NCBI GenBank assembly: GCA_902604575.1
Contig: CACKZH010000002.1
Span: 17,320 to 81,319 of the forward strand
Direction: 5' to 3'
Length of the DNA stretch: 64,000 nucleotides
DNA from: an uncultured Pelagibacteraceae bacterium
Lineage (GTDB): Bacteria > Pseudomonadota > Alphaproteobacteria > Pelagibacterales > Pelagibacteraceae
The stretch's first letter is position 1. The number at the start of each line of letters is the position of its first letter. This document shows, piece by piece, positions 35,692 through 61,127 of this stretch. A program made the translations under genes and the position numbers. The notes beneath the pieces are model-generated. The model was not told the origin of the DNA, did not search any database, and worked only from the letters and a program-made list of their open reading frames with translations.

Positions 35692-35703
35692 AAACAAATC
35701 TAT

Positions 35704-35739: not shown

Positions 35740-35755
35740 TTTTAAAGGATTCATT

Positions 35756-39220: not shown

Positions 39221-39924
39221 TGATTAATAAAAATTTTTTCTTTAAAGGATATAGATCTATATTTACACATGATAGTCCAGCTATTGCTCTTACTTTTTGC
39301 TTTATAGCAATAGGAGCTCTCTTTAAAAATTTAGGCTTTAATATTCAGGAAAGTATTTTTTCAACTGTTTTGACTTATGCTTTACCGGGCTCACTAGTAA
39401 TGGCTGAGTCCATGTTAATTGGAGCATCTTTGTTAAATATTTTTTTGGCGGTTTGGTTTGTTAACGCAAGACTTTACCCTATGGCTGTATCCTTATTCCC
39501 GTTAATGATGCACAAAAGTCAACCTAAGTGGAAATATTACTTTTCTTGTCATTTCATTGCTGTTTCTGCTTGGCTAATCATGAAAAGCAATTACAAAAAA
39601 ATTCCAAAAGAATACAGAATTGATTATTGGATTGGTATTGGAAGTGCAACTGTAAGTGTATCGGTTATCGGAACATTTATAGGTTTCTCTTTTTCAGAAT
39701 ATTTGAATAAAGATATGATGATGGGATTAGCGATTCTTAATCCAGTTTATTTTTTATGCATGATGGTTGGGGCATCTAAAACTATACCGGTAACTCTATC
39801 AGTTTTGCTTGGAACTATATTGGGACCAATTATTTATTTATTCTCACCAGAGTGGTCAATTTTGTTAGCAGGTGTAATTGGTGGAACCATAGCTTATCTA
39901 GTAGGAGAGCACAGTGTCAGCTAA
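39220..39924 (+). CDS. azlC: AzlC family permease
   Basis: AzlC-like TM protein (VWFVNARLYPMAVSLFPLM), overlapped by a small AzlD-like gene. Confidence 0.85.
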   Translation: MINKNFFFKGYRSIFTHDSPAIALTFCFIAIGALFKNLGFNIQESIFSTVLTYALPGSLVMAESMLIGASLLNIFLAVWFVNARLYPMAVSLFPLMMHKSQPKWKYYFSCHFIAVSAWLIMKSNYKKIPKEYRIDYWIGIGSATVSVSVIGTFIGFSFSEYLNKDMMMGLAILNPVYFLCMMVGASKTIPVTLSVLLGTILGPIIYLFSPEWSILLAGVIGGTIAYLVGEHSVS

Positions 39925-40237
39925 TATTGTTTATGCAATTCTAGTTACGTCTCTGGCAACATTTTTGTCTAGATTTTTAGGTGCTCTGACTTCTCAAGGT
40001 ATTAAGGAAACATCGAAACTTTTTAAGTGGTTTAATTGTTTAGCTTATGCAACTTTAGCAGCATTAATTGCAAGAACCATAATTTTTCCTGCTGGCGTGT
40101 TAATAGAAGCCAGTTATTACAGTAGATCGATTGTTGTATTTTTGTCCTTGTTTGTTTTTTTTATTTCTAAGAAAAACTTTGTTTATCCTACAATTTTCTC
40201 AGCTGTTTGTATGGCAATAATTAACAATTATATCTGA
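39914..40237 (+). CDS. azlD: AzlD family transporter subunit
   Basis: 107 aa, multi-TM, follows azlC with overlap. Confidence 0.8.
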   Translation: MSANIVYAILVTSLATFLSRFLGALTSQGIKETSKLFKWFNCLAYATLAALIARTIIFPAGVLIEASYYSRSIVVFLSLFVFFISKKNFVYPTIFSAVCMAIINNYI

Positions 40238-40276
40238 TTAAATTGATTTATAAAATAAGGTAAAATAAAATTTAGA

Positions 40277-41188
40277 ATGCAAAAAATTACAGGCATAGAC
40301 ATTCAAAAACACGATAAATCAAATAGGATTATAAACATTAGTTTAGAAAATGATATAATAGATAAATTAATTTTCCCTTTTAATAAATTTGATTTAACAG
40401 CATTAGAGCTAAAACCATTTACAAGATTTACTTTAGCAAAAAGTTTAGATGATTTAACAAATAATAAATTAAGTGAATTAATGAATTCTATCATTAGAGA
40501 TAGATCAACTGGCTGTTTTATAATAGGACCAAAAAATATAAATGCAAAAATAAATGATACCTTTTTAGTTAAATTATCAACTGCAATAGCTCATCTAATT
40601 GGCATACCAAATCATGATGCAATGGCAGGAAAATATTATGCTCGTTTCCATGTAAAACACGAGGATACTAGCGACTCTTATTTAAGGAAGGCTTATAGGA
40701 ATATGGATCTTCATACAGATGGGACATATGTGAAAGATGAAACAGATTGGTTAATTATGACAAAAATTGATGAACAAAATGTTGAAGGTGGTGAAACAGC
40801 CATGTTACACCTTGATGACTGGGAACATTGTGATGATTTATACAATGATCCAGTTGGGAGGCAAAATTTTGTTTGGGGGTCACCAAAAAGTAAAAATATT
40901 GATTATAAGGTTGAACATCCTGTATTTTCTTCAGATGAAAAAGGTAGACCAACAATCTCTTACATAGATCAATTTCCTGAACCACAAAATATGAAACAAG
41001 GAAATTTTTTACAAAGATTATCTGATGGATTAGAAGAAAGTAAAAATAAAATAATTACGAAATTACCTGTAGGTTGTTCTGTGATTGCAAATAATTATTT
41101 CTGGCTTCATGGAAGAAAACCCTTCAAAGAAAACAAGGAATTAAGCAGAGAATTACTAAGAATTAGAGGTTCTTTTTTTGTTAATTAA
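40277..41188 (+). CDS. CsiD-like Fe(II)/2-oxoglutarate oxygenase (glutarate 2-hydroxylase family)
   Basis: YARFHVKHEDTSDSYLRKAYRNMDLHTDGTYV...MTKIDEQNVEGGETAMLHLDDWEHC matches the CsiD family as recalled; HxD motif HTDG. Confidence 0.82.
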   Translation: MQKITGIDIQKHDKSNRIINISLENDIIDKLIFPFNKFDLTALELKPFTRFTLAKSLDDLTNNKLSELMNSIIRDRSTGCFIIGPKNINAKINDTFLVKLSTAIAHLIGIPNHDAMAGKYYARFHVKHEDTSDSYLRKAYRNMDLHTDGTYVKDETDWLIMTKIDEQNVEGGETAMLHLDDWEHCDDLYNDPVGRQNFVWGSPKSKNIDYKVEHPVFSSDEKGRPTISYIDQFPEPQNMKQGNFLQRLSDGLEESKNKIITKLPVGCSVIANNYFWLHGRKPFKENKELSRELLRIRGSFFVN

Positions 41189-41220
41189 TTCAACATAATC
41201 AATATAAAGTATCCAAAATT

Positions 41221-41988
41221 ATGAATTTAGGTTTTATTGGTACTGGAAAAATTGCAGCCTCAGTGATTACTGGAATATGTAAATCAAAAATTTCTTATAA
41301 AAAAATAATTATTTCACCAAGAAATAAAAAAATAGCTCTTGGGCTAAAAAGAAAGTTTAAAAAAATAGTTATTGCTAAGGATAATCAGCAAATTATAGAT
41401 CAGTCTAATTGGGTATTTTTATCTGTGACGCCAACTGTTGGTGAAAAAATTATAAAAGATTTAAAATTTAAATCTAAACAAACCATTGTTAGCTTTATCT
41501 CGACTATAACTTTGTCACAATTAAAAAAAGCAATTAAAGTAAAAGCAAAAATTGTAAGAGCAATACCTCTACCTCCAATTTCATTAAAAAAAGGTCCAGT
41601 ACCTATTTGCCCTCCCAATCCAAAAGTAAAAGCATTTTTCAATAATTTGGGAACAACAGTAGAAATTAAAAATGAAAAATCTTCTATTAATTTTTGGTCA
41701 ACTTCAGGAATGATGGCACCTTTTTATGAGATGTTGAGAATGATGACGGATTGGTTAGTAAAAAGAGGAGTAAAAAGAAACAATGCTCAAAAATATATTA
41801 CTTCTTTATTTTTAGCTTTATCTGAAGATGCAGTAGTAAATTCAAAAGAAAATTTAAAAAATTTAGTTAAAGAATCTCAAACACCAAAAGGATTGAACGA
41901 GCAAGGAGTAAAAGAATTAACTAAGGCTGGATTTTATAAATCTCTTGAAAAAACTTTAAATAGCATTCACAGAAGACTAAACAAATAA
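41221..41988 (+). CDS. Pyrroline-5-carboxylate reductase-like (ProC family) NAD(P)-binding protein
   Basis: MNLGFIGTGKIAASVITGICKS; SVTPTVGEKIIKDL; C-terminal ProC-like dimerization domain. Confidence 0.75.
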   Translation: MNLGFIGTGKIAASVITGICKSKISYKKIIISPRNKKIALGLKRKFKKIVIAKDNQQIIDQSNWVFLSVTPTVGEKIIKDLKFKSKQTIVSFISTITLSQLKKAIKVKAKIVRAIPLPPISLKKGPVPICPPNPKVKAFFNNLGTTVEIKNEKSSINFWSTSGMMAPFYEMLRMMTDWLVKRGVKRNNAQKYITSLFLALSEDAVVNSKENLKNLVKESQTPKGLNEQGVKELTKAGFYKSLEKTLNSIHRRLNK

Positions 41989-41993: not shown

Positions 41994-42782
41994 ATGTCTG
42001 AGAATATTTTAGAGATTAATAATTTAAGCAAATATTTTGGTGGATTAGCTGCTGTTTCTGATTGTTCAATTAAAGTAAAAAGAGGAACAATAACTGGTAT
42101 AATTGGACCTAATGGATCTGGTAAAACAACTTTATTTAATTTAATTGCTGGAAACTTAAAATCATCAGGTGGAAATGTATTTTTTGATGAGGAAAACATT
42201 ACAGACGTTCCATCATATGAGTTATTTTCTAAAGGACTGCTAAGAACATTTCAAATAGCGCATGAGTTTTCAAATTTATCTGTTTTAGAAAATTTAATGA
42301 TGGTGCCTGGAAATCAATCTGGAGAAAAAATAATGACTGCATTATTTAAGCCAGGTTTAGTTGCACAAGAAGAAGCTGTAGTTAAAGAAAAAGCGAAAGA
42401 AGTTGTTGAATTTTTAAATCTAGGGCACTTATCAAATGAGCTTGCTGGTAATCTTTCAGGCGGACAAAAGAAATTATTAGAGCTTGGAAGAACGATGATG
42501 GTTGATGCAAAATTAGTATTATTAGATGAAGTAGGAGCAGGAGTTAATAGAACTTTATTAAAAGATCTTGGAACTGCAATAGAAAAGTTAAATAAAGAGA
42601 AAGGTTATACTTTTTGTATGATCGAGCATGATATGGATTTCATTGGAAGGTTGTGTGATCCAGTAATTGTAATGGCTGAGGGATCAGTTTTGTTTGAAGG
42701 AAGTGTTGAAGAAGCAAAAAAAGATGAAAAAGTTATCGAAAGTTATCTTGGTAGAGGATCAAAATTAAAGGATACAAATTAA
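41994..42782 (+). CDS. ABC transporter ATP-binding protein, LivG-like
   Basis: GIIGPNGSGKTTLFNLIAG, LSGGQKKLLELGRTMM. Confidence 0.92.
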   Translation: MSENILEINNLSKYFGGLAAVSDCSIKVKRGTITGIIGPNGSGKTTLFNLIAGNLKSSGGNVFFDEENITDVPSYELFSKGLLRTFQIAHEFSNLSVLENLMMVPGNQSGEKIMTALFKPGLVAQEEAVVKEKAKEVVEFLNLGHLSNELAGNLSGGQKKLLELGRTMMVDAKLVLLDEVGAGVNRTLLKDLGTAIEKLNKEKGYTFCMIEHDMDFIGRLCDPVIVMAEGSVLFEGSVEEAKKDEKVIESYLGRGSKLKDTN

Positions 42783-43489
42783 TGGCATATTTTGAGGGAA
42801 TAGAAATGACAGGTGGATATGGTAATGGTCCTGATATTATTAGTTCGTGTTCAGTAAATGTTAATAAAGGTGAAATAGTCTCTATTCTAGGCCCTAATGG
42901 TGCTGGCAAATCAACTGCTATGAAAGCAATGTTGGGCTTGCTCAATTTAAAATCTGGATCAGTAAAGATCGATGGCAAAGATATTTCAAAATTATCTCCT
43001 CAAGATAGAGTTAAACAAGGTATTTCTTTTGTCCCACAGACCAAAAACGTTTTTGCAGGAATGACTGTTGAAGAAAACTTAGAAATGGGTGCATTTCTTG
43101 TTGAGAATGAAATCAAAAATATAATTGAGGAAATTTACGAATTGTTTCCAATTTTAAGAGAGAAAAGAAATCAGATGGTTGGTGAGCTTTCTGGAGGTCA
43201 AAGACAGCAAGTAGCTCTAGGTCGAGCTTTAATGATTAAGCCTACAGTTTTAATGTTAGACGAGCCAACTGCAGGCGTATCACCAATTGTGATGGACGAA
43301 TTATTTGATCATATTGTCAAAGTTAAAAGAACAAATGTTGCTATCTTAATGGTAGAGCAAAATGCAAAACAAGCCTTAAGTATTTCAGATAGAGGCTACG
43401 TATTGGTTACTGGAGAAAATCGTTATTCAGGAACTGGAAAAGAATTATTAGACGATCCAAGAGTAAGAAGCTCTTTTTTGGGAGGGTAA
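42782..43489 (+). CDS. ABC transporter ATP-binding protein, LivF-like
   Basis: SILGPNGAGKSTAMKAMLGL, LSGGQRQQVALGRALM. Confidence 0.92.
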   Translation: MAYFEGIEMTGGYGNGPDIISSCSVNVNKGEIVSILGPNGAGKSTAMKAMLGLLNLKSGSVKIDGKDISKLSPQDRVKQGISFVPQTKNVFAGMTVEENLEMGAFLVENEIKNIIEEIYELFPILREKRNQMVGELSGGQRQQVALGRALMIKPTVLMLDEPTAGVSPIVMDELFDHIVKVKRTNVAILMVEQNAKQALSISDRGYVLVTGENRYSGTGKELLDDPRVRSSFLGG

Positions 43490-43490
43490 T

Positions 43491-44501
43491 ATGGATTTTG
43501 TAAATGCTATAATTCTTTTATTAAATTATATTTTTATTCCTGCATTAACTTATGGATCTCAGTTAGCACTGGGCGCAATATTTGTAACACTTATCTATGG
43601 AATTTTACGATTTGCAAACTTTGCAACTGGTGACATGATGTCTTTTGGAACCATGATTACAATTTTGTTTACATGGTATTTTCAATCATTAGGTGTCTCT
43701 TTGGGTGTTTTACCTACTGCTTTAATAGCTATCCCATTTGGAATTATTTTCATGATTCTTTACATGCTTTTAATAGATAAATTTGTCTTCAAATATTATA
43801 GACACCAGAAAAGCCCTCCAGTTCAGTTTGCAATGGTAAGTATTGGAGTAATGTTTGTAACTCAAGCTGTAGTAAGAATAATAATTGGACCTGCTGATAG
43901 AAGATTTTTTGATGGTGAAAAATTCATTATTAAAGCACGTGAATTTAAGGAGATGACAGGACTAAATGAAGGCCTTGCAATAAAATCAACTCAAGTCTTA
44001 ACAATATTTGTTACAATAGTTTTGGTTTCTTTATTATTTTGGTTTCTAAATAAAACTAAAACCGGTAAAAGTATGAAAGCTTATTCTGATAATGAAGATC
44101 TTGCTTTGCTATCAGGTATTGATCCAAAAAAAATAGTTTTAGTTACGTGGGTTATTGCTGGAATTTTAGCTACAATAGGTGGTGCTTTATATGGCTTAGA
44201 TAAAAGTTTTAAACCATTTACCTACTTTAATAATATGCTTCCTATTTTCGCTGCTGCAATAGTTGGAGGAATTGGAAATCCGTTTGGAGCTTTTTTAGGT
44301 GGATATGTAATTGCTTTTTCAGAAATTTTATTAACTTATGCCTATAAGAAATTTTTTATGTATGTTTTACCAGAAAGTATGGAGCCAGATAGTTTAGTTC
44401 AACTTCTGTCTACAGATTATAAATTTGCTGTATCATTCTCCATACTTGTAATAGTTTTAATATATCGGCCGTCAGGAATATTTAAGGGGAAAGTACTGTG
44501 A
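43491..44501 (+). CDS. ABC transporter permease, LivH-like
   Basis: YGSQLALGAIFVTLIYGILRFANFATGDMMSFGTM. Confidence 0.9.
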   Translation: MDFVNAIILLLNYIFIPALTYGSQLALGAIFVTLIYGILRFANFATGDMMSFGTMITILFTWYFQSLGVSLGVLPTALIAIPFGIIFMILYMLLIDKFVFKYYRHQKSPPVQFAMVSIGVMFVTQAVVRIIIGPADRRFFDGEKFIIKAREFKEMTGLNEGLAIKSTQVLTIFVTIVLVSLLFWFLNKTKTGKSMKAYSDNEDLALLSGIDPKKIVLVTWVIAGILATIGGALYGLDKSFKPFTYFNNMLPIFAAAIVGGIGNPFGAFLGGYVIAFSEILLTYAYKKFFMYVLPESMEPDSLVQLLSTDYKFAVSFSILVIVLIYRPSGIFKGKVL

Positions 44502-45868
44502 GAAAAAATCTTAATGTAATTGCAGCTTATAGTATCATGATGGTGCTTATTTTGATGGTGGGGATATTTCAGTCTTGGAATATTGCATTATCAATATTTA
44601 ATCTTTGTTTGATATCTGCTGTTATGACGATGGGTGCAAATATTCAATGGGGTTATGCAGGTTTAATTAATTTTGGAATTATGGGCTATACAGCTTTAGG
44701 TGGTTTAGCTGCAGTATTGATATCTGTCGACCCTGTTCAAGAAGCTTGGAGGGCTGGTGGTTTCGATATTTTAATGTCGTTATGGCTTATAGTAGTAATG
44801 GTATTAGTTGTAAGGTTTATTTTAAAAAGATTTGAAAAATCAAAAATAAGAACATACAGCATAGCTGCAATAATAATTTCAGGTATCTTGCTTATTAGGT
44901 TCTCTGCAGAACCAGGTATTGAGGCTATAGAAGCAGTCGATCCAGCTAAAACAGGTTTCCTAGGAGGATTTGGATTACCAATTATATTTTCTTGGATAGT
45001 AGGAGCTCTTTTTGCCGGTGGTTTAGCTTTTATAATTGGAAAAGTTGCTCTCGGTCTTAGGGCGGACTATTTAGCTATAGCCACTCTTCTTATTTCTGAA
45101 ATTGTTATTGCGATCATTAAACATGAAGATTGGCTTACAAGAGGTGTAAAGAATGTTATTGGTTTAAAAAGACCTGCGCCTTATGAAGTAGATCTCCAAA
45201 CAACAGATTGGTTTATAAATTTAGTAGAAAAGTTTCATTCAGGAAAATTAAATTTAATTGAAAATTTAGCTGATCGACAAGCTGCTTTAAATCAGCTTGT
45301 AATCGAAGGTTCATCAGTATTTGTAAAGTTATGTTACTCTGGATTATTCCTGGTAGTTGTAATTATTCTTTTAATTTTAACTCAAAAAGCACTTTATTCT
45401 CCATGGGGAAGAATGATGAGGGCAATAAGAGATAATGAGGAAGCTGCAAATGCAATGGGTAAAAATGTTGTTAAACAACATTTATTAATTTTTATTCTAG
45501 GTTCAGCTATTGTTGGAATTGCTGGAGCAATGTTGGTTACTCAAGATGGTTTGTTTACTCCAGGAAGTTATAGACCAATGAGATATACTTTTTTGATTTG
45601 GGTGATGGTAATTGTCGGGGGAAGTGGAAATAATTTTGGAGCAATTTTAGGAGGATTTGTTGTTTGGTTCTTATGGATTGAAGCTGCACCAATATCATTA
45701 TTTTTAATAAATTTTTTCACTGCTGGAATACCTGAAACAAATGCACTTAAAGCTCACTTAATAGAAAGTGTTCCTTATTTTAGATTTTTAATGATGGGAT
45801 TAGGGTTGTTATTAATTATGAGGTATCGACCTAAAGGTATACTTCCTGAAAAAATAGAAATAAAGTAA
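44498..45868 (+). CDS. ABC transporter permease, LivM-like
   Basis: NIQWGYAGLINFGIMGYTALGG, LRADYLAIATLLISEI, RAIRDNEEAANAMGKN. Confidence 0.9.
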   Translation: MRKNLNVIAAYSIMMVLILMVGIFQSWNIALSIFNLCLISAVMTMGANIQWGYAGLINFGIMGYTALGGLAAVLISVDPVQEAWRAGGFDILMSLWLIVVMVLVVRFILKRFEKSKIRTYSIAAIIISGILLIRFSAEPGIEAIEAVDPAKTGFLGGFGLPIIFSWIVGALFAGGLAFIIGKVALGLRADYLAIATLLISEIVIAIIKHEDWLTRGVKNVIGLKRPAPYEVDLQTTDWFINLVEKFHSGKLNLIENLADRQAALNQLVIEGSSVFVKLCYSGLFLVVVIILLILTQKALYSPWGRMMRAIRDNEEAANAMGKNVVKQHLLIFILGSAIVGIAGAMLVTQDGLFTPGSYRPMRYTFLIWVMVIVGGSGNNFGAILGGFVVWFLWIEAAPISLFLINFFTAGIPETNALKAHLIESVPYFRFLMMGLGLLLIMRYRPKGILPEKIEIK

Positions 45869-47146: not shown

Positions 47147-48352
47147 TTATCTTTGTTTTTTAGTTTTGAATTTTCCGCCTTTAATTTCTTGTTCTAAGAA
47201 AGAACCTTCAGCTTCACCAACTTCAGTAAAAGTAACTCCAGTAGCACCTTCGTAATTTATCTTTTTACCTTTTGCTAATAAATCTAAACCTTTCTTAAGT
47301 TCACCTGGGTAAATCTTTTTTCCAGGAGCGTTAGCAACATCCATTACATTTTTTGCAATAGATGCTCTGTCAGCAGAGTTACCTGCTTGCATTGCAAGAA
47401 TGATTAAAGCAGCTGCATCGTAAGACTCAGCTGTGTATGGACCAGATGCTTCTACACCACCAGCTTTTGCAACTTCAGCAAATATACCCGCACCTTTGCC
47501 CGTAGAACCCGGCATTGATCCAAATGATTTGCTTAAATCTTTACCAAAAGCATCAACTAAAGATTGACCGATCATACCATCTGATAAAACAAATTTATCA
47601 AATGCACCAGAGTCTAAAGAAGCTTGAATGATTCCTTTTCCTCCTTGGTCAAGATAACCAATAACAGCTACAGCATCACCACCAGCAGATGCAAGAGTTG
47701 CAACTTCGGATGAGTAATCTGCTTTTCCATCTTCGTGAGCAGTTACAGTTGTAACTTTAATACCATGAGCTTCAACTGCCGCCTTATATACATCAGCTAA
47801 ACCTTTACCATAGTCATTGTTAGTATAAGTGATTGCAACACTTTTTACTTTTCTATCTTTAGTTATGTCAGCTAAAATTTGACCACCTCTAGCATCTGAT
47901 GGAGCAGTTCTAAAGAAGTACCCTTTATCATCTAGAGTTGTTAATCCTGGAGAAGTTGCAGAAGGTGAAATCATAACTACACCATTTGGTACAGCAACGT
48001 TTGTTGCAATTGCACCAGTTACACCTGAACAGTCTGCTCCCATGATTGCAGCCACACCACCTGATATTAAACCTTCAGCTGCTGCTGTCGCTGCTGCTGA
48101 GTCAACACAAGTTGAGTCTGCTCTCATTACTTCAATTTTTTTTCCACCTAATAGTGAACCTGAGTCAGAAGCTTCTTTAAATGCAAGCTCTGCAGATGCA
48201 GCCATAGCTGGAGTTAGAGATTCAATAGGACCAGTGAATCCTAAAATAATCCCCATTTTAATATCTGCCATTACTTTTGTTCCAAAAATAGAAATAAACA
48301 TAAAAGCAGCGATAAATAGTTTTCTCATTATCTTCCTCTTTATTGTTAACAA
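47147..48352 (-). CDS. Branched-chain-amino-acid-type ABC transporter substrate-binding protein
   Basis: Signal peptide; IKMGIILGFTGPIESLTPAMAASAELAFKEA; periplasmic binding protein type 1 fold. Confidence 0.9.
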   Translation of the reverse strand: MLTIKRKIMRKLFIAAFMFISIFGTKVMADIKMGIILGFTGPIESLTPAMAASAELAFKEASDSGSLLGGKKIEVMRADSTCVDSAAATAAAEGLISGGVAAIMGADCSGVTGAIATNVAVPNGVVMISPSATSPGLTTLDDKGYFFRTAPSDARGGQILADITKDRKVKSVAITYTNNDYGKGLADVYKAAVEAHGIKVTTVTAHEDGKADYSSEVATLASAGGDAVAVIGYLDQGGKGIIQASLDSGAFDKFVLSDGMIGQSLVDAFGKDLSKSFGSMPGSTGKGAGIFAEVAKAGGVEASGPYTAESYDAAALIILAMQAGNSADRASIAKNVMDVANAPGKKIYPGELKKGLDLLAKGKKINYEGATGVTFTEVGEAEGSFLEQEIKGGKFKTKKQR

Positions 48353-48435: not shown

Positions 48436-49926
48436 TTATCTTATTGAGAAAGGGTCTAGAGAAGGTTCGTCAGAGGTATAGAACCATGTTGTTTTGACTC
48501 TTGTATAGTCTTTAATTGAATCAATTCCTGCTTCTTTTCCATACCCACTATCCTTGATACCTCCAAATGGAGCTGAAGGAGAAATTAATCTATAAGTATT
48601 TACAAAGGTTATTCCTGCCCTAATTGCTTTTGAGACTCTCATCCCTCTGGATAAATTACTTGTATAAACACCTGAAGATAATCCATATTGATTATCATTC
48701 ATTTTTGAAATTACTTCCTCTTCTGTATCAAATTTCATTACTGATAATACAGGTCCAAATAACTCATTTTCTGCTACTGGCAGATTGTGATTATCACATT
48801 CTATAATTGTTGGAGGAAAGTAATATCCCTTATTAGAAAAGGAATGTCTTTCACCTCCACACTTAATTTTTCCACCTTGATCAATTGTATCTTTAATATT
48901 TTTTTCTATTACCTCTAATTGTTTAAAATTACTTAAAGGCCCCATCTCTGTTTCTGGATCCATTGGTGCTCCAATTTTGATTTGTGAAGCACGTTTTGAA
49001 AGTTTATCTAAAAATTCATTGTAAATCCCTTTTTGCAAATAAAGTCTTGATCCTGCTATACAACTTTGACCACTTGCACCGAATATACCTGCAGTAATTC
49101 CATTTATTGCATTTTCTTGTTCTGCATCATCAAATACTGCAACTGGGCTTTTTCCACCTAATTCCAAACTTACTTCAGATAAATTTTCAGCAGAGTTTCT
49201 AATTATATGTCTCGCTGTTTCAGGACCTCCAGTAAATGCAACTTTTTCAACTAGATTGTGCGTAGTTAAACTTTTACCACAAGGATCCCCAAATCCAGTA
49301 ATGACATTTACTACGCCTTTAGGGATACCAGTTTTTTCAATTAACTTTGCAAATTCAAACAAAACAGCAGGGGCAAGTTCGGAGGATTTAATTACAACTG
49401 TGTTACCCATTGCAAGTGCTGGTGCAACTTTAGTTGCAGTTAAAAACATTTGCGAATTCCAAGGAATAATTGCAGCTATAACTCCTATAGGTATTCTTGT
49501 TGTTATTGCTTGAACATTTGGTTTATCTATTGGCAAAACTGTTCCTTCAACTTTATCTGCCAAACCAGCGTAATAGTCGTAATATTCTGCTATATAAACT
49601 GCTTGTTTTTTTGTTTCTCTATAGAGTTTTCCAGTATCAATTGTTTCTATTTCTCCTAGCATTTCTGCATTCTTTCTTAATTGATCTCCAATAGCTCTTA
49701 AGTATTTAGCTCTTTCTCTAGGAAGTAGCTTTGGCCATTCTCCCTCAAATGCTTTTTGAGCAGCTTTAACTGCATTATCAACATCTTTAGCACTTGCTTC
49801 TGGAACAACTGCCCATGGCTCATTATGTTCTGGATTTAGAGTTTCAAATGTTCTTTTATTTTCAGAGTCAACCCATTCACCATTAATAAACATTTTATAT
49901 TGTTTAAGTTTACTCATCTGATCCAA
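48436..49926 (-). CDS. Aldehyde dehydrogenase family protein
   Basis: IPWNSQMFLTATKVAPALAMGNTVVIKSSE, LELGGKSPVAVFDDA, GASGQSCIAGSRLY. Confidence 0.93.
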   Translation of the reverse strand: MDQMSKLKQYKMFINGEWVDSENKRTFETLNPEHNEPWAVVPEASAKDVDNAVKAAQKAFEGEWPKLLPRERAKYLRAIGDQLRKNAEMLGEIETIDTGKLYRETKKQAVYIAEYYDYYAGLADKVEGTVLPIDKPNVQAITTRIPIGVIAAIIPWNSQMFLTATKVAPALAMGNTVVIKSSELAPAVLFEFAKLIEKTGIPKGVVNVITGFGDPCGKSLTTHNLVEKVAFTGGPETARHIIRNSAENLSEVSLELGGKSPVAVFDDAEQENAINGITAGIFGASGQSCIAGSRLYLQKGIYNEFLDKLSKRASQIKIGAPMDPETEMGPLSNFKQLEVIEKNIKDTIDQGGKIKCGGERHSFSNKGYYFPPTIIECDNHNLPVAENELFGPVLSVMKFDTEEEVISKMNDNQYGLSSGVYTSNLSRGMRVSKAIRAGITFVNTYRLISPSAPFGGIKDSGYGKEAGIDSIKDYTRVKTTWFYTSDEPSLDPFSIR

Positions 49927-50695
49927 TAAAATTTTTGATAATTAAATTTACATCATCAGCACACTCAATACCACAAAGATGTTTTCCATCTTTAATGATC
50001 TTTAATTGACTTTTAGAGATTAAAGCATTCAATTCTTGAGACATTTTTACAGTTGAGCCAATGTCATATTCACCTGTCATAACTAGCGTATTAGCTTTAA
50101 TTTTATTAAAATCTTCATCATTTTTATGATTAACGAATAGCTCATAAACCTTTAGAAAATTTTTCATGTTATTTGCAGACAAAATTGAACTTATTTTTTC
50201 ATATGTTTCTGGATTATTTTCTAAATATTTATCAGTAAACCATCTCTTTAAAGCTTGCTTTGAAAGTTTTAATTCTTGTTTTGCTTGTTCAAACCTTTGA
50301 TTAACAATTTTTTGTTGTTCCTCAGTTCTTTTATAAATAGAACACAAAAGAGTTAATGTTTGTAAATGTTCATTATGTTTAGTTGCAAAATTTCGTGCAA
50401 TTAAAGATCCTATAGAGAAACCCACAAGATGTATTTTTTTTATATTGAGATGGTCCATTAACCCAATTAATTGGTCAGAAAAATCATCAAAACTTATTTC
50501 TTTATTTTCTAATGAAGATTTTCCATGACCTAAAATGTCATAGGCAAGAGTTGAGTGATAATTAAAAAATTCAAGCTGAGGCTGCCATATTTCGTGAGTA
50601 AGACCTACACCATGCACAAATACTATTGGCACATCTTGATCCTTTTTATTGAATAAGTAATATGTTCCTGAGGCAGTAGTTCCCGTCTTCATCAA
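49910..50695 (-). CDS. Alpha/beta hydrolase
   Basis: VPIVFVHGVGLTHEIWQPQ, LVGFSIGSLIARNFA (GxSxG). Confidence 0.9.
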   Translation of the reverse strand: MMKTGTTASGTYYLFNKKDQDVPIVFVHGVGLTHEIWQPQLEFFNYHSTLAYDILGHGKSSLENKEISFDDFSDQLIGLMDHLNIKKIHLVGFSIGSLIARNFATKHNEHLQTLTLLCSIYKRTEEQQKIVNQRFEQAKQELKLSKQALKRWFTDKYLENNPETYEKISSILSANNMKNFLKVYELFVNHKNDEDFNKIKANTLVMTGEYDIGSTVKMSQELNALISKSQLKIIKDGKHLCGIECADDVNLIIKNFIGSDE

Positions 50696-50698
50696 GAA

Positions 50699-51286
50699 TT
50701 ATTTTGGCTCAATACCCATTTCTTTCATGTCTTGATATCTGTCACCAGTTCTTGCATGTGCTCTACCACTTGATGCCCCACCAATTGCAATAACCACCTC
50801 ATCATCGAAGGGTGCATCATGAATAGTAAATTCATGAGTTAGGTAATATGGTCTTAATCCAGAATCTGTTTTATGCATCATAGGAATCGCAATCTTTGAT
50901 CCAGCAGGTCCTCTTGTATTTGTAAAACTTAAATAGGAAGTTCCACCAACCGCATCTCTAAATTTATTGCCAAACCTTAAAGTATGAATAAAAGCTGAGG
51001 CATGCTCTATTTCACCGTTCAATCCAACTACACCTGCCTTACCATATGCCAATATTTTTTCAGGTGATCCTATTTCTTTTATCAATTCTGGAACAAGTAA
51101 ATCACCTAGCTTTGGTGCAAGATCTAAAATAGTTGGTCTGAGATCTTCAACAAAACCCTGACCATGCCATGGATTTTTAAACACTGCTGCTACTGATACC
51201 ATTAAAACCGGTTCTTTTGCTTCTTTACCACCTTCAATAAAAGTTTTGTCTACAAATTTTGTAAATTTTCTTAATTCTAATTTCAT
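50699..51286 (-). CDS. Amino acid synthesis family protein (PF06684/DUF1185-like)
   Basis: 195 aa: MVSVAAVFKNPWHGQGFVEDL, YGKAGVVGLNGEIEHASAFIHTLRFGNKFRDAVGG, IAIGGASSGRAHARTGDRYQDM. Confidence 0.8.
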   Translation of the reverse strand: MKLELRKFTKFVDKTFIEGGKEAKEPVLMVSVAAVFKNPWHGQGFVEDLRPTILDLAPKLGDLLVPELIKEIGSPEKILAYGKAGVVGLNGEIEHASAFIHTLRFGNKFRDAVGGTSYLSFTNTRGPAGSKIAIPMMHKTDSGLRPYYLTHEFTIHDAPFDDEVVIAIGGASSGRAHARTGDRYQDMKEMGIEPK

Positions 51287-52986
51287 TTTTTTAATTTATG
51301 TTTGAAACTATCTCTTCTAAAACTGTATAATGCTTTTGGATCTACATCAACATCTATCACAGATGGCTTATTCGATTTAATTGCTGCTCTTACAGCTTCA
51401 CTAATCTCAGAAATTTTTTTAACTTTAAAACCTCTTGCACCATAAAGTTCTGCAACCTTATCAAAGGATGGACTGGTAATATCTGCACCTAAATATCTTT
51501 TGCCAAAAAAATCTTTTTGATAAGCTTTTTCTGCACCCCAGCTTTGATTGTTCATCACAATAGTTGTTGTATTAATTCCATATTCAACAGCAGTGCTTAA
51601 TTCAGATATTGTCATACCAAAACCTCCATCACCCATAAGACTAACAACTGTTTTTTTAGGCTTAGCAACCTTGACTCCGAGACCACATGCAAAAGAAAAT
51701 CCAACTAAACCAAAGTCCAATGGGGTAAATAATGAAGGAGGATCATAATATTCTAAAGCATCTGTAGCCTGCAAACATAATGTTCCAGCATCAAGAGTAA
51801 TTGCTGAGTTTCTTGGTAGCACTTTTCTTAATTGTTTAAATAGTCCTTTTGGTTGTATAGGAAAATTTGGACCCAAATTTTCTTTATTTCTACTTATCAA
51901 ATATTCTTTTCTCTCTTGTAAATAAGAGTTAGTCCAATCTTTAACATTTAATTTAATTTTCTCTTTTTTAATCTCTTCGTAAAGTTGTTTAGTTGCAGTC
52001 GCAGCATCGGCGTGTATCTTTACTTTTACAGGAAAATATTTTCCAAGCATTGTTTTTTCTAGTTCAATTTGAATTATCTTTGCTTCTTTATTTATATTTT
52101 CATAGGAGTAAAAAGTTGAATTGAATCCTAAACGTGTTCCAATTGCTAAAATGACATCTGCATTTTTAACTAATCTTGATGCTACAGGATTTCCTCTAGG
52201 ACCCATTTGTCCCGCATTTAATTTATGACCAAATGGAATTGCATCTCCATGACCTGCTGCTGTAGCAATAGGTAAGTTGCATAGCTCAGCTAATTTTATT
52301 ACCTCTTTGTATTTAGAATTATACTTTATTCCAGCACCTACAATAATTACTGAACATTTTGAAGATCCAATTAATTTTGCGGCATGTTTAATATTTTCTA
52401 TATTTCCTTTTTGTTTACTCTCATTTGTGAATGATTGTTTTTTAGTATTAATATTATAGGTGTTTGAGGCTGCTAATATATTTCTTGGTAAATTTACACA
52501 AACAGGTCCTTTTCTAGGTTTCATTGCCAAACTAAAAGCATCACTCATAATTTTTGGAATTATTTTTGAATTTTTTATAGTCCAAGTTTTTTTTGTAATA
52601 GGTGTAAACAAAGACTGTTGATCTAAACCTTGAAAAGCATCTTCCATTTTATCTTTAGTTGAATAAGAACCTGCAATTGCAACAATTGGAGAAAAGGCAG
52701 CTTTTGCTTGAGCAACTCCTGTAACTAAATTAGTAGCACCAGGTCCATTTTGTCCCGCAATAATTACACCAGGCTTATTTGATGCTCTTGCGTAACCATC
52801 AGCCATATGTGTGCCAGTTCTCTCATCTCTGACACCAATAAATTTTATATTTTTTTCATGATAAAGAGCGTCAAACATTTCCATTGTTGCTGAACCAATA
52901 AGTCCAAAAACATGTTTTACTTTTTCTTTTTTTAATGATTGAACTGCAGCTTGTCCGCCGCTAATTCTTTTTCGTTTTTTTTTCAC
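51283..52986 (-). CDS. Thiamine-diphosphate-dependent enzyme, acetolactate synthase/benzoylformate decarboxylase-like
   Basis: VKHVFGLIGSATMEMFDALY, RDERTGTHMADGYARASNKPGV, SLMGDGGFGMTISELSTAVEYGINTTTIVMNNQSWG. Confidence 0.9.
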   Translation of the reverse strand: MKKKRKRISGGQAAVQSLKKEKVKHVFGLIGSATMEMFDALYHEKNIKFIGVRDERTGTHMADGYARASNKPGVIIAGQNGPGATNLVTGVAQAKAAFSPIVAIAGSYSTKDKMEDAFQGLDQQSLFTPITKKTWTIKNSKIIPKIMSDAFSLAMKPRKGPVCVNLPRNILAASNTYNINTKKQSFTNESKQKGNIENIKHAAKLIGSSKCSVIIVGAGIKYNSKYKEVIKLAELCNLPIATAAGHGDAIPFGHKLNAGQMGPRGNPVASRLVKNADVILAIGTRLGFNSTFYSYENINKEAKIIQIELEKTMLGKYFPVKVKIHADAATATKQLYEEIKKEKIKLNVKDWTNSYLQERKEYLISRNKENLGPNFPIQPKGLFKQLRKVLPRNSAITLDAGTLCLQATDALEYYDPPSLFTPLDFGLVGFSFACGLGVKVAKPKKTVVSLMGDGGFGMTISELSTAVEYGINTTTIVMNNQSWGAEKAYQKDFFGKRYLGADITSPSFDKVAELYGARGFKVKKISEISEAVRAAIKSNKPSVIDVDVDPKALYSFRRDSFKHKLKK

Positions 52987-54152
52987 GAAACTTTTTTTAC
53001 TTCAGTACCAAAATCATCCTGAAAGTGAGGCATAACTTTTTCTGTAAAAAGTTTTATACTTTTCATGCAATCTTTATGCTTAACACCTGGAAAATTAGAC
53101 CAAACTTGTAAATTTTGTAAATTGAGTTCAGATTTTAATTCGTGAATTTTATCAATCACATATTCTGGTGTTCCAAACAACATGTTTCTTTTATGTAAAA
53201 ATTCATAATTTAATAAATCTAATTTACCTTTTGTTTCAGGTAATTCTTCACCTGGATCCATGTGATTTCCTAATCCTCTCCAATGACAAACCCACCTCAT
53301 ATAATTTACCATATGTTTGCCAGCCTTTTCTTTTGCTTCTTCCATTGTATCTGCCACAAACATATCTCTTACAAGGGAAACACCTTCACCAAGTGGTATA
53401 TTTTTCTTTGTTACCTCTGATCTTTTATTTTTATAAGCCTCAAACTTTGGTTTCAAAGCTTTTACAGTTGGTATCCACATGATCACATTAATGTTATTTT
53501 CAGCAGCCCACTCAATCGATCTAATTCCATCAACAACTTGATGAATTGGAGGGTGTGGCTGTTGGTATGGCTGTGGAACAACACTAATTTTTTTCATAGT
53601 ACTGTCTTCCATATTCATAAATTCTTCACTAGGAGGACTCATATCATGCTGCCAAACATAATTTGGCGATGGATAAGTATAAAATTCACCCTGATGACTG
53701 AAAAATTTTTCACTCCATGCTTTCTTCAATACTTCTAAAGTTTCAGCAAATAATCTGAAATTTTTAGCCTGATCTTTTAAGTCAGCTTCTTTATTTAGGT
53801 TAATTGCTTCTCTGCCATATATTCCTCTTGCTACACCCACTTCAACTCTTCCTTTAGAAAGCTGATCTAGTGTAGCTATATCTTCAGCTAATCTTATCGG
53901 ATTATGAAAAGTTATAACGTTTGCAGCTTGGCCTATTCTAATATTTTTTGTTCTTGCAGCAGCATCTGCACCCATCATTAATGGATTTGTACAAGACTCC
54001 ATTCCCTCGTGATTGAAGTGATGTTCTGTAAACCAAATTGAATTCCATTTGTTTTGATCACAGTATTCTGTGATTTCTTTAGTTTCATCTAATAATTGAT
54101 GATAAGGTTTGTGTGTCCAGTTTGTGGTATTACAAAAATAACCAAATTTCAT
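52983..54152 (-). CDS. LLM class flavin-dependent oxidoreductase (luciferase-like monooxygenase)
   Basis: MKFGYFCNTTNWTHKPYHQ, WFTEHHFNHEG, IRIGQAANVITFHNPIRLAEDIATLDQLSKGRVEVGVARG; internal Met preferred over 54194. Confidence 0.9.
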   Translation of the reverse strand: MKFGYFCNTTNWTHKPYHQLLDETKEITEYCDQNKWNSIWFTEHHFNHEGMESCTNPLMMGADAAARTKNIRIGQAANVITFHNPIRLAEDIATLDQLSKGRVEVGVARGIYGREAINLNKEADLKDQAKNFRLFAETLEVLKKAWSEKFFSHQGEFYTYPSPNYVWQHDMSPPSEEFMNMEDSTMKKISVVPQPYQQPHPPIHQVVDGIRSIEWAAENNINVIMWIPTVKALKPKFEAYKNKRSEVTKKNIPLGEGVSLVRDMFVADTMEEAKEKAGKHMVNYMRWVCHWRGLGNHMDPGEELPETKGKLDLLNYEFLHKRNMLFGTPEYVIDKIHELKSELNLQNLQVWSNFPGVKHKDCMKSIKLFTEKVMPHFQDDFGTEVKKVS

Positions 54153-56216: not shown

Positions 56217-56678
56217 TTATTTCTTCAATTTAGAGGTGAATAGCAGACCTTTATCTGAAAATTTTGACTTATATTGTTCAATAAAGTCTCTCATTAATTT
56301 TACCTTTTCTTCCTCAAATTCTGTGACTTTTCTTTTACTTAAATCTATATACAGCGATATCCACTCCATAGAGGCTGAAAGTTCATTAGTTTTTTGAGAA
56401 ATCATTTCCATCTTTAAATGAAGTCTTTTTTTGTCATGGTCAAAATAGGTTAGATTAACATTTACTTTTTCACCTTCTTTAACTTCATTTAAATATTTAG
56501 TATTTGTTTCAACAACCATTGTACTTCTATCAAGATTTTTTGCTGCAGTTCCTCCCATTTTAAATTTTTCAAGTGCAAATTCCCATGCTTCATCAAAAAC
56601 AAGAACATAATAAGCCATGTTCATGTGATTATTATAATCAACCCATTCCTTTTTTACTTCGAAAGTTTTTAATAACAC
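56217..56678 (-). CDS. Acyl-CoA thioesterase, hotdog fold
   Basis: EWVDYNNHMNMAYYVLVFDEA (4HBT-type) and TNTKYLNEVKEGEKVNV. Confidence 0.85.
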   Translation of the reverse strand: MLLKTFEVKKEWVDYNNHMNMAYYVLVFDEAWEFALEKFKMGGTAAKNLDRSTMVVETNTKYLNEVKEGEKVNVNLTYFDHDKKRLHLKMEMISQKTNELSASMEWISLYIDLSKRKVTEFEEEKVKLMRDFIEQYKSKFSDKGLLFTSKLKK

Positions 56679-56679
56679 T

Positions 56680-57705
56680 TTATGATCTTGTTAAGGAAGA
56701 CTGTAATTCTTGATTTGAAATGTATCCCTTTACATTTCCACTTTTATCAACCACTTCACAATTTGAATCAGAACAAACAATTTTTGGTAAAAAATCTTCA
56801 ATAAATTCATCTTCATTTACTTTTATTAAGTTTGATTTATCTATGTCTTTAGCTTGATCAGCAGTTTTCATAATAATCTTTGCTTTGATAACTTTCGCTC
56901 TGTTCACATCTTTTACAAAAGCTTTAACATAATCATCAGCAGGGTTCATAATAATCTCCTCAGGAGTTCCTACTTGAACTAATTTTCCAGAATTTAATAT
57001 CCCGATATGATCTCCCAACCTTAATGATTCGTCTAGATCGTGTGTAATAAATACAATTGTTTTTTTTAATTCTGCTTGAAGATCAATTAATTGTTTTTGC
57101 ATATCACTTCTAATAAGGGGGTCTAAAGCGCTGAAAGCTTCATCCATTAACATAATATCTGTATCAGTAGCTAATGCTCTTGCTAAACCAACACGTTGCT
57201 GCATTCCTCCTGATAATTGAGCAGGGTATTGATTTTCAAAACCAGTAAGACCAACTGCATCGATTTTTTCCATTGAGATTTTATTTCTTTCATCTTCACT
57301 TTTCCCTTGCATTTCTAATCCATAACCAACATTTTGAATTACTGTTTTATGCGGGAATAAACCAAATCTTTGAAATACCATGCTCATTTTATGTCTTCTA
57401 AATTCGATAAGTTTTTCTTTATCAAGTGACATTACATTCGTGCCCTCAACTAAAATTTCGCCATCAGTTGGATCGATAAGTCTATTTAAATGTCTTATTA
57501 ATGTTGATTTCCCTGAACCTGATAAACCCATACAAACAAAGGTTTCTCCTTCTTCAATATTAAGCGAAACATTATCTAATCCAACGGTATGACCAGTTTG
57601 CTCTAAAATTTCATCTTTTGTTGCACCATCTTTTACCATTGGCAATACAGAGGAAGGGTTATTTCCAAATATTTTGTATACGTTGTTGATCTCAATTTTT
57701 GACAT
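56680..57705 (-). CDS. Quaternary amine (glycine betaine/proline-type) ABC transporter ATP-binding protein
   Basis: ProV/OpuAA-type: GLSGSGKSTLIRHLNRLIDPTDGEI, FQRFGLFPHKTVIQNVGYGLE, LSGGMQQRVGLARAL, C-terminal CBS-like region. Confidence 0.9.
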   Translation of the reverse strand: MSKIEINNVYKIFGNNPSSVLPMVKDGATKDEILEQTGHTVGLDNVSLNIEEGETFVCMGLSGSGKSTLIRHLNRLIDPTDGEILVEGTNVMSLDKEKLIEFRRHKMSMVFQRFGLFPHKTVIQNVGYGLEMQGKSEDERNKISMEKIDAVGLTGFENQYPAQLSGGMQQRVGLARALATDTDIMLMDEAFSALDPLIRSDMQKQLIDLQAELKKTIVFITHDLDESLRLGDHIGILNSGKLVQVGTPEEIIMNPADDYVKAFVKDVNRAKVIKAKIIMKTADQAKDIDKSNLIKVNEDEFIEDFLPKIVCSDSNCEVVDKSGNVKGYISNQELQSSLTRS

Positions 57706-57830
57706 GATGTAATGTTCTAACAGTTACAATGATGATATGTAAAACAAATATTATACAACTTACAATTGTTTCAAGAAATAACGGTTGTATTTATTTGCTT
57801 TTACTTATTTTTTAAATAAGAATTTTATAT

Positions 57831-58562
57831 ATGGCGCAAACAGATAAAGATGTGCGATTAGAGTTATCTGCTCTCTACAGAATTTTACATATGTACGGTA
57901 TGACAGACCTTGCTAATCAATGTGCGGGTGCAAGATCTGCTGAAGATAAGAATTGTTCATTCGTTCATCCATATGGAATGTTTTATGAAGAAATTACCGC
58001 CTCATCTTTAGTTAAAATTGATCAAAACGGAAAAAAATTAGGTTCAGACGGACCTTGGTTAAATGATGGATGTATTAATCTTGCTCAATGGATTTTTAAT
58101 AAAAGAAATGATGTAAACTTTTATGTTCATGGACATGCTAATGATGTAATGGCAGTTGGTGGCACTAAAGAGGGTTTAATGTATCTATCACAGGCAGCAG
58201 TTTATTTAAATCATCTTGTCGGATATATTGATTATGAATTTGTTGAGGACAAAGAATTTGGAAGTAAATTTGAAAACCTAATTAGCAAACACGATATTTT
58301 GATTACTAGAAATCATGGATATTATACAGTAGGAAAAACTGCTGCAGAAGCATTTTTCAGAGCTTATTATCTGGAGCAAGCATGTTCAGTTCAGGTAAAA
58401 AATCTTGCTATGGGTTTGAACAAACACGAAATAGATAAACAAAAAGCCGTATATTTTTGGGAAAACATGAGTGACTCTGATGATTATAATTATGATGGAA
58501 AAACTGAGTGGGCTGCTTTATTAAGAAAGCTAGAGAGAGAACATTCAAATTATAAAAATTAA
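57831..58562 (+). CDS. Class II aldolase/adducin family protein
   Basis: LSALYRILHMYGMTDLANQCAGARS, NFYVHGHANDVMAVGG, ILITRNHGYYTVGKTAAEAFFRAYYLEQAC. Confidence 0.88.
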   Translation: MAQTDKDVRLELSALYRILHMYGMTDLANQCAGARSAEDKNCSFVHPYGMFYEEITASSLVKIDQNGKKLGSDGPWLNDGCINLAQWIFNKRNDVNFYVHGHANDVMAVGGTKEGLMYLSQAAVYLNHLVGYIDYEFVEDKEFGSKFENLISKHDILITRNHGYYTVGKTAAEAFFRAYYLEQACSVQVKNLAMGLNKHEIDKQKAVYFWENMSDSDDYNYDGKTEWAALLRKLEREHSNYKN

Positions 58563-59713
58563 TGGAACAAAATTTTACAATTAAAAATATAACCAAAAAT
58601 TCTACAAACCTAGAAGTTGACTGGAGTGATGGAAAAAAAAGTAAATTTAATTATTTATGGTTAAGAGACAATTGCCCAACTGCGCATGATAAAGACTCTC
58701 GTCATAGAATGTTTAATATTTTAAAAGTATCTAACAATATTAATCCAAAAAAATTTGCAGTAAATAACGAAGGTAAACTTGAAATTGAATGGAGTGAAGG
58801 AGATCACGTAAGTTATTATGATCAAAATTGGTTAAGAGAAAACTGCTATACTTTAAAAAATAATTTAGAATATAAATCACCATATCAGCTTTGGAATAAC
58901 ACTTTACAAAATGACCTGAAGTCAATTGAGATAGAGCATGATGAGATAATGAATTCAGATGAAGGTCTTAAGAAATGGTTAGAGCTCTTACATCATACTG
59001 GAATTGCTTTAGTAAAAAATGCCCCAACTGAAAATAATTCTGGCTTTAAAATTTTAAATAGAATTAGCCATACTAGAGAAACTTTTTTTAAAACACCTTT
59101 TGAAGTAATTAATATTCCTAAACCAAATAATTCTGCATACACAGCACATGCCTTAAGAAACCATATGGATTTACCATGGTTTGAAACGCCACCAGGCTAC
59201 CAATTTCTACACTGCTTAGTTAATTCTGCAACTGGTGGAGATTCATCTGCTGTAGATGGCTTTGCAGTTGCAGATTATTTAAGAAAAAATGAAACAGAAA
59301 TATTTGATACGTTAGTAAATGTTCATTTAAAATTCAGAGATATGGATTACACACAAGAGTCTGTCAGAAGTTATTATGCGCCTGCAATATCATTAACAAA
59401 AGATAATGATTACCATGATATTCGATTTAGTGTTGCTACAATGGATGCTTTAGATTGTCATCCTGATTTAATGGACAAAGTTTATAAAGCTCATCATCGA
59501 TTTGGAAATTTGCTTCATGATGACAAATTTCAAATTAAGTTCAGACTAGGACCAGGAGATATTTTTTCATTTAATAACAGACGATTATTACATGGTAGAA
59601 CTGAATTTGATCCAAATTCAGGGCATAGACATTTGCAAGGTTATTATATGGATCGAGATGAAATTGTTGGAAGACTAAGATATTTAAAAAACTCGGCTAA
59701 TTCCAACCAGTAA
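58562..59713 (+). CDS. Gamma-butyrobetaine hydroxylase/trimethyllysine dioxygenase-like Fe(II)/2OG oxygenase
   Basis: N-terminal DUF971-like FNYLWLRDNCPTAHDKDSRHR; catalytic HMDLPWFETPPGYQFLHCL and GDIFSFNNRRLLHGRTEFDPNSGHRHLQGYYMDRDEIVGRLRYL. Confidence 0.88.
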   Translation: MEQNFTIKNITKNSTNLEVDWSDGKKSKFNYLWLRDNCPTAHDKDSRHRMFNILKVSNNINPKKFAVNNEGKLEIEWSEGDHVSYYDQNWLRENCYTLKNNLEYKSPYQLWNNTLQNDLKSIEIEHDEIMNSDEGLKKWLELLHHTGIALVKNAPTENNSGFKILNRISHTRETFFKTPFEVINIPKPNNSAYTAHALRNHMDLPWFETPPGYQFLHCLVNSATGGDSSAVDGFAVADYLRKNETEIFDTLVNVHLKFRDMDYTQESVRSYYAPAISLTKDNDYHDIRFSVATMDALDCHPDLMDKVYKAHHRFGNLLHDDKFQIKFRLGPGDIFSFNNRRLLHGRTEFDPNSGHRHLQGYYMDRDEIVGRLRYLKNSANSNQ

Positions 59714-61127
59714 CATTTTTCACTTCCAGGTATTCTTCAAGACCCCAAACACCTCCTTCTCTTCCATTACCCGATTGTCTGTAACCACCAAATGGAGTTC
59801 CGGCATCTGCTCCATTTCCATTAATGTAAACACATCCAGATCTTAATTTTTTAGCAACACGATGTGCTTTTTCTCTATCTTCAGTTTGCAAATAATTTCC
59901 AAGACCATAAGAAGTATCGTTTACAATATTAACCGCCTCATCTTCTGTTTCAAATGGAATTATAGATAACACAGGTCCAAAAATCTCTTCTTTAGCAATT
60001 CTCATTTCATTAGTTACATCTGTAAATATAGTTGGTTTAATAAAGTATCCTTTGTTAAGACCATTTGGTAACTCAGGTCCACCTGCTGCAAGAGTTGCAC
60101 CTTCAGAAATTCCACTTTCAATAAGATTTATAATTTTATCATATTGAACTTTAGAGATTACAGGTCCTATATGATTTCCTTTTTTTGAAGCTTGATCTAC
60201 TTTAATTTTGTTTGCTTCATCTACTGCTTCTTTAACAGCTCTTTCATAAATTGATTTCTCAACAAGCATTCTTGTTGGTGCATCACAAGATTGACCCGAA
60301 TTACTCATTACATTTCTAATACCATCTCTTACTGCATCTTTATAACTATCAGCAAAAACAATGTTACCGCCTTTACCACCTAATTCAAGACAAACTCTTT
60401 TGATTGTTTCTGCAGCGTTTTTTGAAATTAATCTTCCTGCTCTTGTTGAGCCTGTGAAAGAAACCATATCAATATCAGGGTGGCTTGAAATATCAGTTCC
60501 TACTCCTGCACCATCTCCATTTACTAAATTAAATACTCCTTTTGGAAAACCTACTTCATCAATCATTTCTGCAAATAGCATTCCAGAAATAGGAGCAATC
60601 TCTGATGGTTTTAAAATCATTGTACATCCAGTTGCAAATGCAGGAACTACTTTTAAAGCAATTTGATTAATTGGCCAATTCCATGGTGTAATTAATCCAC
60701 AAACTCCAATTGGATCATAATAAATATGATTGTTTGATTTATCATCAAAATGTTCATCAAATTTAAAATTTTTTAATCTTAAAATAAAATCATCAAGATG
60801 ATCTATCCCTGATGCCGTTTGAACATTCGTTGCCCAATCCATTGGTGCACCCATTTCTAGAGAAATAGCCTCAGCCATTTCATTAAATTTTTTTTTATAA
60901 ACTGATGATAATTTTTCTAGTAAATGGAGCCTTTCTTCCTTGCTTGTTTCTTTCCAAGTTTCAAAGGCATTTTTTGCTGATTTAACAGCTAAATCTATAT
61001 CTTCTTTTGAACCTAAAGAAATAATAGCAAAAGGATCCTCATTGCATGGATTAATGACTTCAAAATCATTTTTTTTTATTGGATCAACCCACTGACCATT
61101 TATGTAAAACTTTCTTTTATCTAACAT
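59697..61127 (-). CDS. Aldehyde dehydrogenase family protein
   Basis: TPWNWPINQIALKVVPAFATGCTMILKPSE, LELGGKGGNIVFADS, NSGQSCDAPTRMLVE. Confidence 0.93.
   Translation of the reverse strand: MLDKRKFYINGQWVDPIKKNDFEVINPCNEDPFAIISLGSKEDIDLAVKSAKNAFETWKETSKEERLHLLEKLSSVYKKKFNEMAEAISLEMGAPMDWATNVQTASGIDHLDDFILRLKNFKFDEHFDDKSNNHIYYDPIGVCGLITPWNWPINQIALKVVPAFATGCTMILKPSEIAPISGMLFAEMIDEVGFPKGVFNLVNGDGAGVGTDISSHPDIDMVSFTGSTRAGRLISKNAAETIKRVCLELGGKGGNIVFADSYKDAVRDGIRNVMSNSGQSCDAPTRMLVEKSIYERAVKEAVDEANKIKVDQASKKGNHIGPVISKVQYDKIINLIESGISEGATLAAGGPELPNGLNKGYFIKPTIFTDVTNEMRIAKEEIFGPVLSIIPFETEDEAVNIVNDTSYGLGNYLQTEDREKAHRVAKKLRSGCVYINGNGADAGTPFGGYRQSGNGREGGVWGLEEYLEVKNVTGWN

Follow-up and report, generated by a model that had tools for sequence, protein, structure and literature searches.

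We propose that five adjacent SAR11 genes encode a short pathway that resembles the trigonelline (Tgn) route and would act on a small N-heterocyclic zwitterion by opening its ring; by analogy with the known clusters we give this reading a probability of about one half. The genes lie in a 64,000-nucleotide stretch of DNA from an uncultured Pelagibacteraceae bacterium, called the window below. Their content, their conservation and the kinship of two of their products, the PF06684 protein and the aldehyde dehydrogenase (ALDH), to those of trigonelline-type clusters were established directly. Judged by sequence comparison, the operon is a variant of the Tgn-type cassette and not a plain copy of it. 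The initial annotation of this DNA had recognised no described pathway in the gene combination, without taking this as proof of novelty, and on this point it has to be corrected.

The five open reading frames, all with Pfam matches, form a single minus-strand run from 54152 down to 48436 (Table 1). The positions and protein families first assigned to them were confirmed, and the tight packing, with its overlaps and 3-nt gap, was reproduced by recomputation (intergenic gaps of −4, −4, +3 and −17 bp), while 83 bp separate the ALDH gene from that of the solute-binding protein. The 17-bp overlap of the hydrolase and ALDH genes hinges on a TTG start, and an ALDH start at the ATG of codon 4 or 12 would shorten or remove it. 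Catalytic motifs were found in the hydrolase (GFSIG), the ALDH (GQSC and ELGGK) and the TPP enzyme (GDG...NN and the conserved Glu). An Rfam scan showed no element near the operon, and promoter and terminator scans around it gave results at or below chance. The folds of all five protein families are already known, and this knowledge would not settle the substrate.

Table 1 Features of the operon and its transport genes in the window.
Feature	Coordinates	Strand	Match and role
LLM flavin-dependent monooxygenase, 389 aa	52983..54152	-	Bac_luciferase 7.9e-44; proposed ring-opening oxygenase
TPP enzyme, 567 aa, Xsc-like	51283..52986	-	Pfam TPP_enzyme N/M/C; accessory
PF06684 / DUF1185 protein, 195 aa, TgnF-like	50699..51286	-	AA_synth 4.3e-64
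Alpha/beta hydrolase, 261 aa	49910..50695	-	Abhydrolase_1 1.1e-22; proposed amide/formamide hydrolase, TgnD-like role
Aldehyde dehydrogenase (ALDH), 496 aa, TgnC-like	48436..49926	-	Aldedh 1.3e-160
LIV/HAAT-type periplasmic solute-binding protein	47147..48352	-	Peripla_BP_6 2.1e-32; usual, not constant, neighbour
ABC transporter, two ATPases and two permeases	41994..45868	+	BPD_transp_2 for 43491-44501

A scan of named genome contigs returned 80 loci, all from SAR11, with a PF06684 protein at 95-100% identity. The genes for LLM, TPP enzyme, PF06684 protein, hydrolase and ALDH are contiguous and in this order in 65 of the 67 SAR11 loci with enough flank, and the other two lack the TPP gene only. 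This retention, together with low dN/dS values of the operon genes (0.014-0.195 in comparisons with four SAR11 loci and 0.10-0.35 with a more remote relative at the level of the order), indicates that the association is not due to chance. A neighbourhood check had been suggested, and it found the association of the five genes conserved in SAR11, not absent, in agreement with a co-inherited catabolic operon. The most conserved gene is that of the PF06684 protein, with 95% identity where the hydrolase has about 60%; all five genes are retained in order-level relatives, where identities are 51-68%, and 42-43% for the hydrolase. The PF06684 gene is carried by 19 of 61 sampled relatives and by 14 of 37 sampled same-genus genomes, many of these being incomplete and the window genome (59 contigs totalling 920 kb, with a completeness of 70%) being counted. 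Given this patchy distribution, the operon could mark a niche trait.

Some SAR11 loci show rearrangements. A mosaic locus (L012:5315-6690) has a dS relative to the window of 0.09 for the PF06684 gene and 0.24 for the hydrolase gene, against 1.2-1.9 for the LLM, TPP and ALDH genes, a contrast which suggests that the PF06684-hydrolase segment recombined. A methyltransferase-domain gene (L059:9365-9994) sits between the TPP and PF06684 genes in about eight SAR11 loci. On a short single-cell contig (L054:2-3877), the LLM and TPP genes stand on the strand opposite PF06684, either through an inversion or through an assembly chimera.

In the trigonelline pathway, as reportedly described by Perchat et al. 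2018, a two-component flavin oxygenase cleaves trigonelline at C5-C6 and an ALDH oxidises the product, after which a hydrolase is said to yield methylamine, formate, CO2 and succinate semialdehyde. A core of four genes (PF06684 protein, hydrolase, LLM, ALDH), joined in most cases by that of a flavin reductase, is common to Sinorhizobium pSymA, Leisingera, Chimaeribacter and Acinetobacter. The core and the flavin reductase gene lie together on the Sinorhizobium, Leisingera and Chimaeribacter plasmids, whose LLM, ALDH and PF06684 proteins are 68-74% identical to those of Acinetobacter; the set is divergently arranged in Rhizobium and Mesorhizobium and is present too in many alphaproteobacterial genomes. 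The Acinetobacter cluster (L197) has the same order and, in addition, a heterocycle transporter and gabD (succinate-semialdehyde dehydrogenase). Its 328-kb record is labelled Acinetobacter phage MD-2021a, and looks like a mislabelled bacterial chromosome because it also carries many host metabolic genes. In S. meliloti 2011 the Tgn-type cluster is located on pSymA, and wild-type S. meliloti grows on trigonelline while a strain without pSymA does not (PMC4207669). A 1991 title, known through its citation, also places trigonelline catabolism genes in the symbiotic region of pSym.

The SAR11 operon resembles the Tgn cluster of A. baylyi and the S. meliloti pSymA region in its one-cluster setting and in two proteins, the PF06684 protein (56-57% identity, 56% with the Acinetobacter cluster) and the ALDH (50-52%). 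In the PF06684 tree, the SAR11 proteins form their own clade (support 100/99) beside the trigonelline-type clade (100/94), and both make up one catabolic group that is split from other paralogues at 99/99. The SAR11 protein is thus of the catabolic, TgnF-containing clade, with the Acinetobacter L197 protein standing in for A. baylyi TgnF in the comparison. The family had been annotated as one not known to have a firmly established role; a described context does exist, in which TgnF of the A. baylyi trigonelline pathway, a homologue of the PF06684 protein of the same study, is reported to stimulate TgnE, a succinate-semialdehyde dehydrogenase (PMC7913881). The PF06684 protein HcdD belongs, together with a flavin reductase, to a 7-hydroxycoumarin catabolic operon of Pseudomonas mandelii (PMC7913881), a system which differs from the SAR11 operon in its other enzymes and its substrate, and in which the role of HcdD is putative. 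Because PF06684 proteins occur in coumarin catabolism and also at loci L140, L141, L148 and L149, whose clusters showed no LLM, they do not fix the substrate. For the ALDH, the only protein that the reciprocal best hit check covers, the S. meliloti cluster enzyme gave the operon ALDH as top match in the window genome with 548 bits, the next match having 259. This clear top match and the 52% identity to the Acinetobacter cluster ALDH identify the enzyme as TgnC-type.

In other respects the SAR11 operon departs from the Acinetobacter and S. meliloti Tgn clusters: its LLM belongs to another clade (23-27% identity), its hydrolase is 23-28% identical, it contains an extra Xsc-like TPP enzyme, and it has neither a flavin reductase nor a second semialdehyde dehydrogenase. 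In the LLM tree, the SAR11-type proteins, together with those of loci L139 and L143, form a clade of their own, split at 100/100 from the TgnB-type clade, and the SAR11 LLM, 23% identical to that of the Acinetobacter cluster, is not TgnB-type. The Tgn-like reading is weakened at the substrate for this reason, the LLM being the substrate-setting oxygenase. Among 299 Pseudomonadota, LLM matches at E<1e-50 came only from the window genome and one other. RutA of the Rut pyrimidine pathway was rejected as an identity for the LLM (TIGR03612, 19.9 bits for a cut-off of 498.3). The hydrolase lies in the same superfamily and cluster setting as that of the Acinetobacter cluster, from which it is remote, with only 28% identity, and this too weighs against the Tgn-like reading. 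A PF01613 flavin reductase was sought in the window genome and in a complete carrier genome (G012) and none was found, a further point against this reading, and the SAR11 operon has no TgnA-type partner. Each carrier genome has two PF03358 matches, and these proteins, encoded elsewhere in the genome, could be the source of reduced flavin.

A bridge between the two kinds of cassette is locus L139, which combines a SAR11-type LLM (54%) with a flavin reductase, a PF06684 protein (62%), a hydrolase and an ALDH 62% identical to that of S. meliloti. This cassette adjoins genes for a Rieske oxygenase and an FAD amine oxidoreductase, a company that suits N-methylated betaines. It argues, as do the ALDH and PF06684 proteins by being closest to the trigonelline-type set, against a reading in which the cassette logic is the same and the SAR11-type LLM attacks a non-pyridinium ring (a lactone, an aromatic ring or a sulfur or oxygen heterocycle), the product being processed by the ALDH, the hydrolase and the PF06684 protein. 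Such a ring would be consistent with the nearest LLMs outside the alphaproteobacterial cassettes (Peribacillus, Sulfitobacter plasmids; 30-34% identity), which adjoin lactonase-fold hydrolases and ribB and, in Sulfitobacter, also aromatic meta-cleavage genes. The nearest NCBIfam family of the hydrolase, below cut-off, is 3-oxoadipate enol-lactonase, and HcdD belongs to a coumarin pathway, which point in the same direction; on balance we consider a non-pyridinium ring unlikely.

Judged by the sequences, a SAR11 version of the plain trigonelline pathway, its TgnB having diverged, appears more improbable still. The gene set and the PF06684 and ALDH kinship would fit it, as would the detection of trigonelline in particles from seawater (PMC8269262), but the carriers of the pathway keep LLMs close to that of Acinetobacter, the SAR11 LLM lies in the other clade, no TgnA-like reductase was found and the operon is without a second ALDH. 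A further cassette lineage was seen in Parasedimentitalea and Aminobacter (L198, L199), where PF06684, hydrolase, RidA, ALDH and LLM genes occur with those for a CoA transferase, an enoyl-CoA hydratase, a 3-keto-5-aminohexanoate cleavage enzyme and an ABC transporter.

The TPP enzyme, initially described as ALS-like, is instead a sister to sulfoacetaldehyde acetyltransferase (Xsc). Its NCBIfam scores are 383.8 bits for Xsc (TIGR03457, cut-off 676.4) and 393.3 bits for ALS (TIGR00118, cut-off 538.4). The tree places it with Xsc and away from acetolactate synthase; its clade, which is sister to Xsc, includes Ruegeria pomeroyi SPO_RS21380. It has the WGAEK motif region in common with Xsc at an identity of 30-31%, the active-site region reading WGAEKAYQ where ALS has GM..QWQ. 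We rejected its assignment as acetolactate synthase, the score being below cut-off and the ALS active-site region missing, and likewise as true Xsc, from which its score and its separate clade set it apart. The gene is missing from the operon in the complete genome G012 and in several other SAR11 carriers, and the enzyme is therefore accessory or dispensable. Two genomes from outside SAR11 have it, at 60-61% identity, in the company of the PF06684 protein, hydrolase and ALDH. Sulfonate catabolism, with desulfonation-like chemistry by the LLM and an Xsc-like TPP enzyme, would fit the kinship of the TPP enzyme to Xsc and an LLM family that includes alkanesulfonate monooxygenases, but is very improbable, since the LLM scores 30.8 bits with the alkanesulfonate monooxygenase model (cut-off 518), the Xsc score falls short, the TPP gene is absent from some operons, and the PF06684 and ALDH proteins point elsewhere. 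On the Ruegeria pomeroyi megaplasmid (L182:7351-16671) the gene of SPO_RS21380, a close homologue of the TPP enzyme, occurs with those of an MttB-like methyltransferase, a class III aminotransferase and two FAD-dependent oxidoreductases. One shared product, a semialdehyde or a 2-oxo acid, would be consistent with both the SAR11 and the Ruegeria settings.

The solute-binding protein had been noted as adjacent to the operon and as a possible supplier of its substrate, and its gene does follow that of the ALDH in most SAR11 loci; the linkage is not constant, at least nine loci carrying other genes there. Its structural matches do not point to a ligand, as the closest solved structures are generic Leu/Ile/Val-type binding proteins. 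In most SAR11 loci the ABC ATPases and permeases keep their place next to the gene of this protein, immediately so in L049, L053 and L056, and this transporter probably pairs with the solute-binding protein.

The most likely logic of the operon, as suggested in the initial annotation, is that it acts on a single substrate by oxidation, hydrolysis and the oxidation of an aldehyde. In the Tgn-like pathway that we favour, the LLM oxygenase would use reduced flavin to open the ring of the N-heterocyclic zwitterion, the ALDH would oxidise the semialdehyde end of the ring-opened product, and the alpha/beta hydrolase would split the resulting amide or formamide, the carbon going to the TCA cycle and the amine being released. 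The PF06684 protein would take a TgnF-like assisting role, and the Xsc-like TPP enzyme may, in some lineages, act as an accessory by converting a product that is a semialdehyde or 2-oxo acid. We infer this reaction order, as well as the flavin source and the role of the TPP enzyme.

The operon suggests that SAR11 cells may feed on marine osmolytes related to trigonelline, such as homarine. Homarine and trigonelline lead the candidate substrates, both as guesses: homarine stands well short of an even chance, trigonelline is improbable, and another N-methylated heterocycle would be a further guess. Homarine is a marine N-methylpyridinium carboxylate, the catabolism of which could use an LLM, an ALDH and a deformylating hydrolase. 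If it is likewise cleaved at C5-C6, oxidation by the ALDH and deformylation would, by chemical reasoning, give N-methyl-iminoglutarate, which may be converted to N-methylglutamate or to 2-oxoglutarate and methylamine. N-methylglutamate dehydrogenase takes part in homarine catabolism according to a citation in PMC13390433, and the published homarine pathway (Ferrer-Gonzalez et al. 2026, Nat Microbiol) may already include the SAR11 operon. The comparison of growth on homarine and trigonelline in PMC8269262 was withdrawn by a correction, and the homarine values were cut to 1/25; that comparison is therefore left out of account here. It is possible, though doubtful, that the SAR11 pathway was independently assembled, with its own LLM lineage, without a dedicated PF01613 reductase, and with an uncharacterised Xsc-like TPP enzyme consuming the semialdehyde or 2-oxo acid; marine zwitterions such as homarine would then be degraded by a route not described so far. 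The window genome has a match above cut-off to TIGR03105, a glutamine-synthetase-III family which we take to be a methylamine-assimilation ligase, and a SoxD match. Since SAR11 genomes without the operon have these matches as well, they give no specific support to a methylamine-releasing substrate.

SAR11 are the most abundant ocean bacteria and dominate the surface-ocean bacterioplankton, and to our knowledge their turnover of nitrogen-containing osmolytes is largely without assigned genes. If the substrate is homarine or trigonelline, the latter a plant and algal compound, the operon would serve to mark, at the level of genes, a pool of labile nitrogen and carbon in the sea. With the TPP enzyme, an Xsc-like group that is uncharacterised comes into view; it is present too in Ruegeria pomeroyi, a marine model organism amenable to genetics.

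Further genes of the window were noted on both sides of the operon. Beside its transporter, positions 34453-41988 hold another ABC system of the LIV type, an AzlC protein, CsiD, which belongs to the glutarate hydroxylase family (1.4e-138), and, above the NCBIfam cut-off, a ProC-like reductase. Positions 56217-61127 contain genes for a thioesterase like the C-terminus of carnitine 3-dehydrogenase, a ProV-type ATPase, a class II aldolase, a GBBH-like 2OG dioxygenase and an aldehyde dehydrogenase, suggesting carnitine or gamma-butyrobetaine catabolism. An alphaproteobacterial (permuted) tmRNA lies at 5015-5314 and an rhtB sRNA match at 33680-33760.
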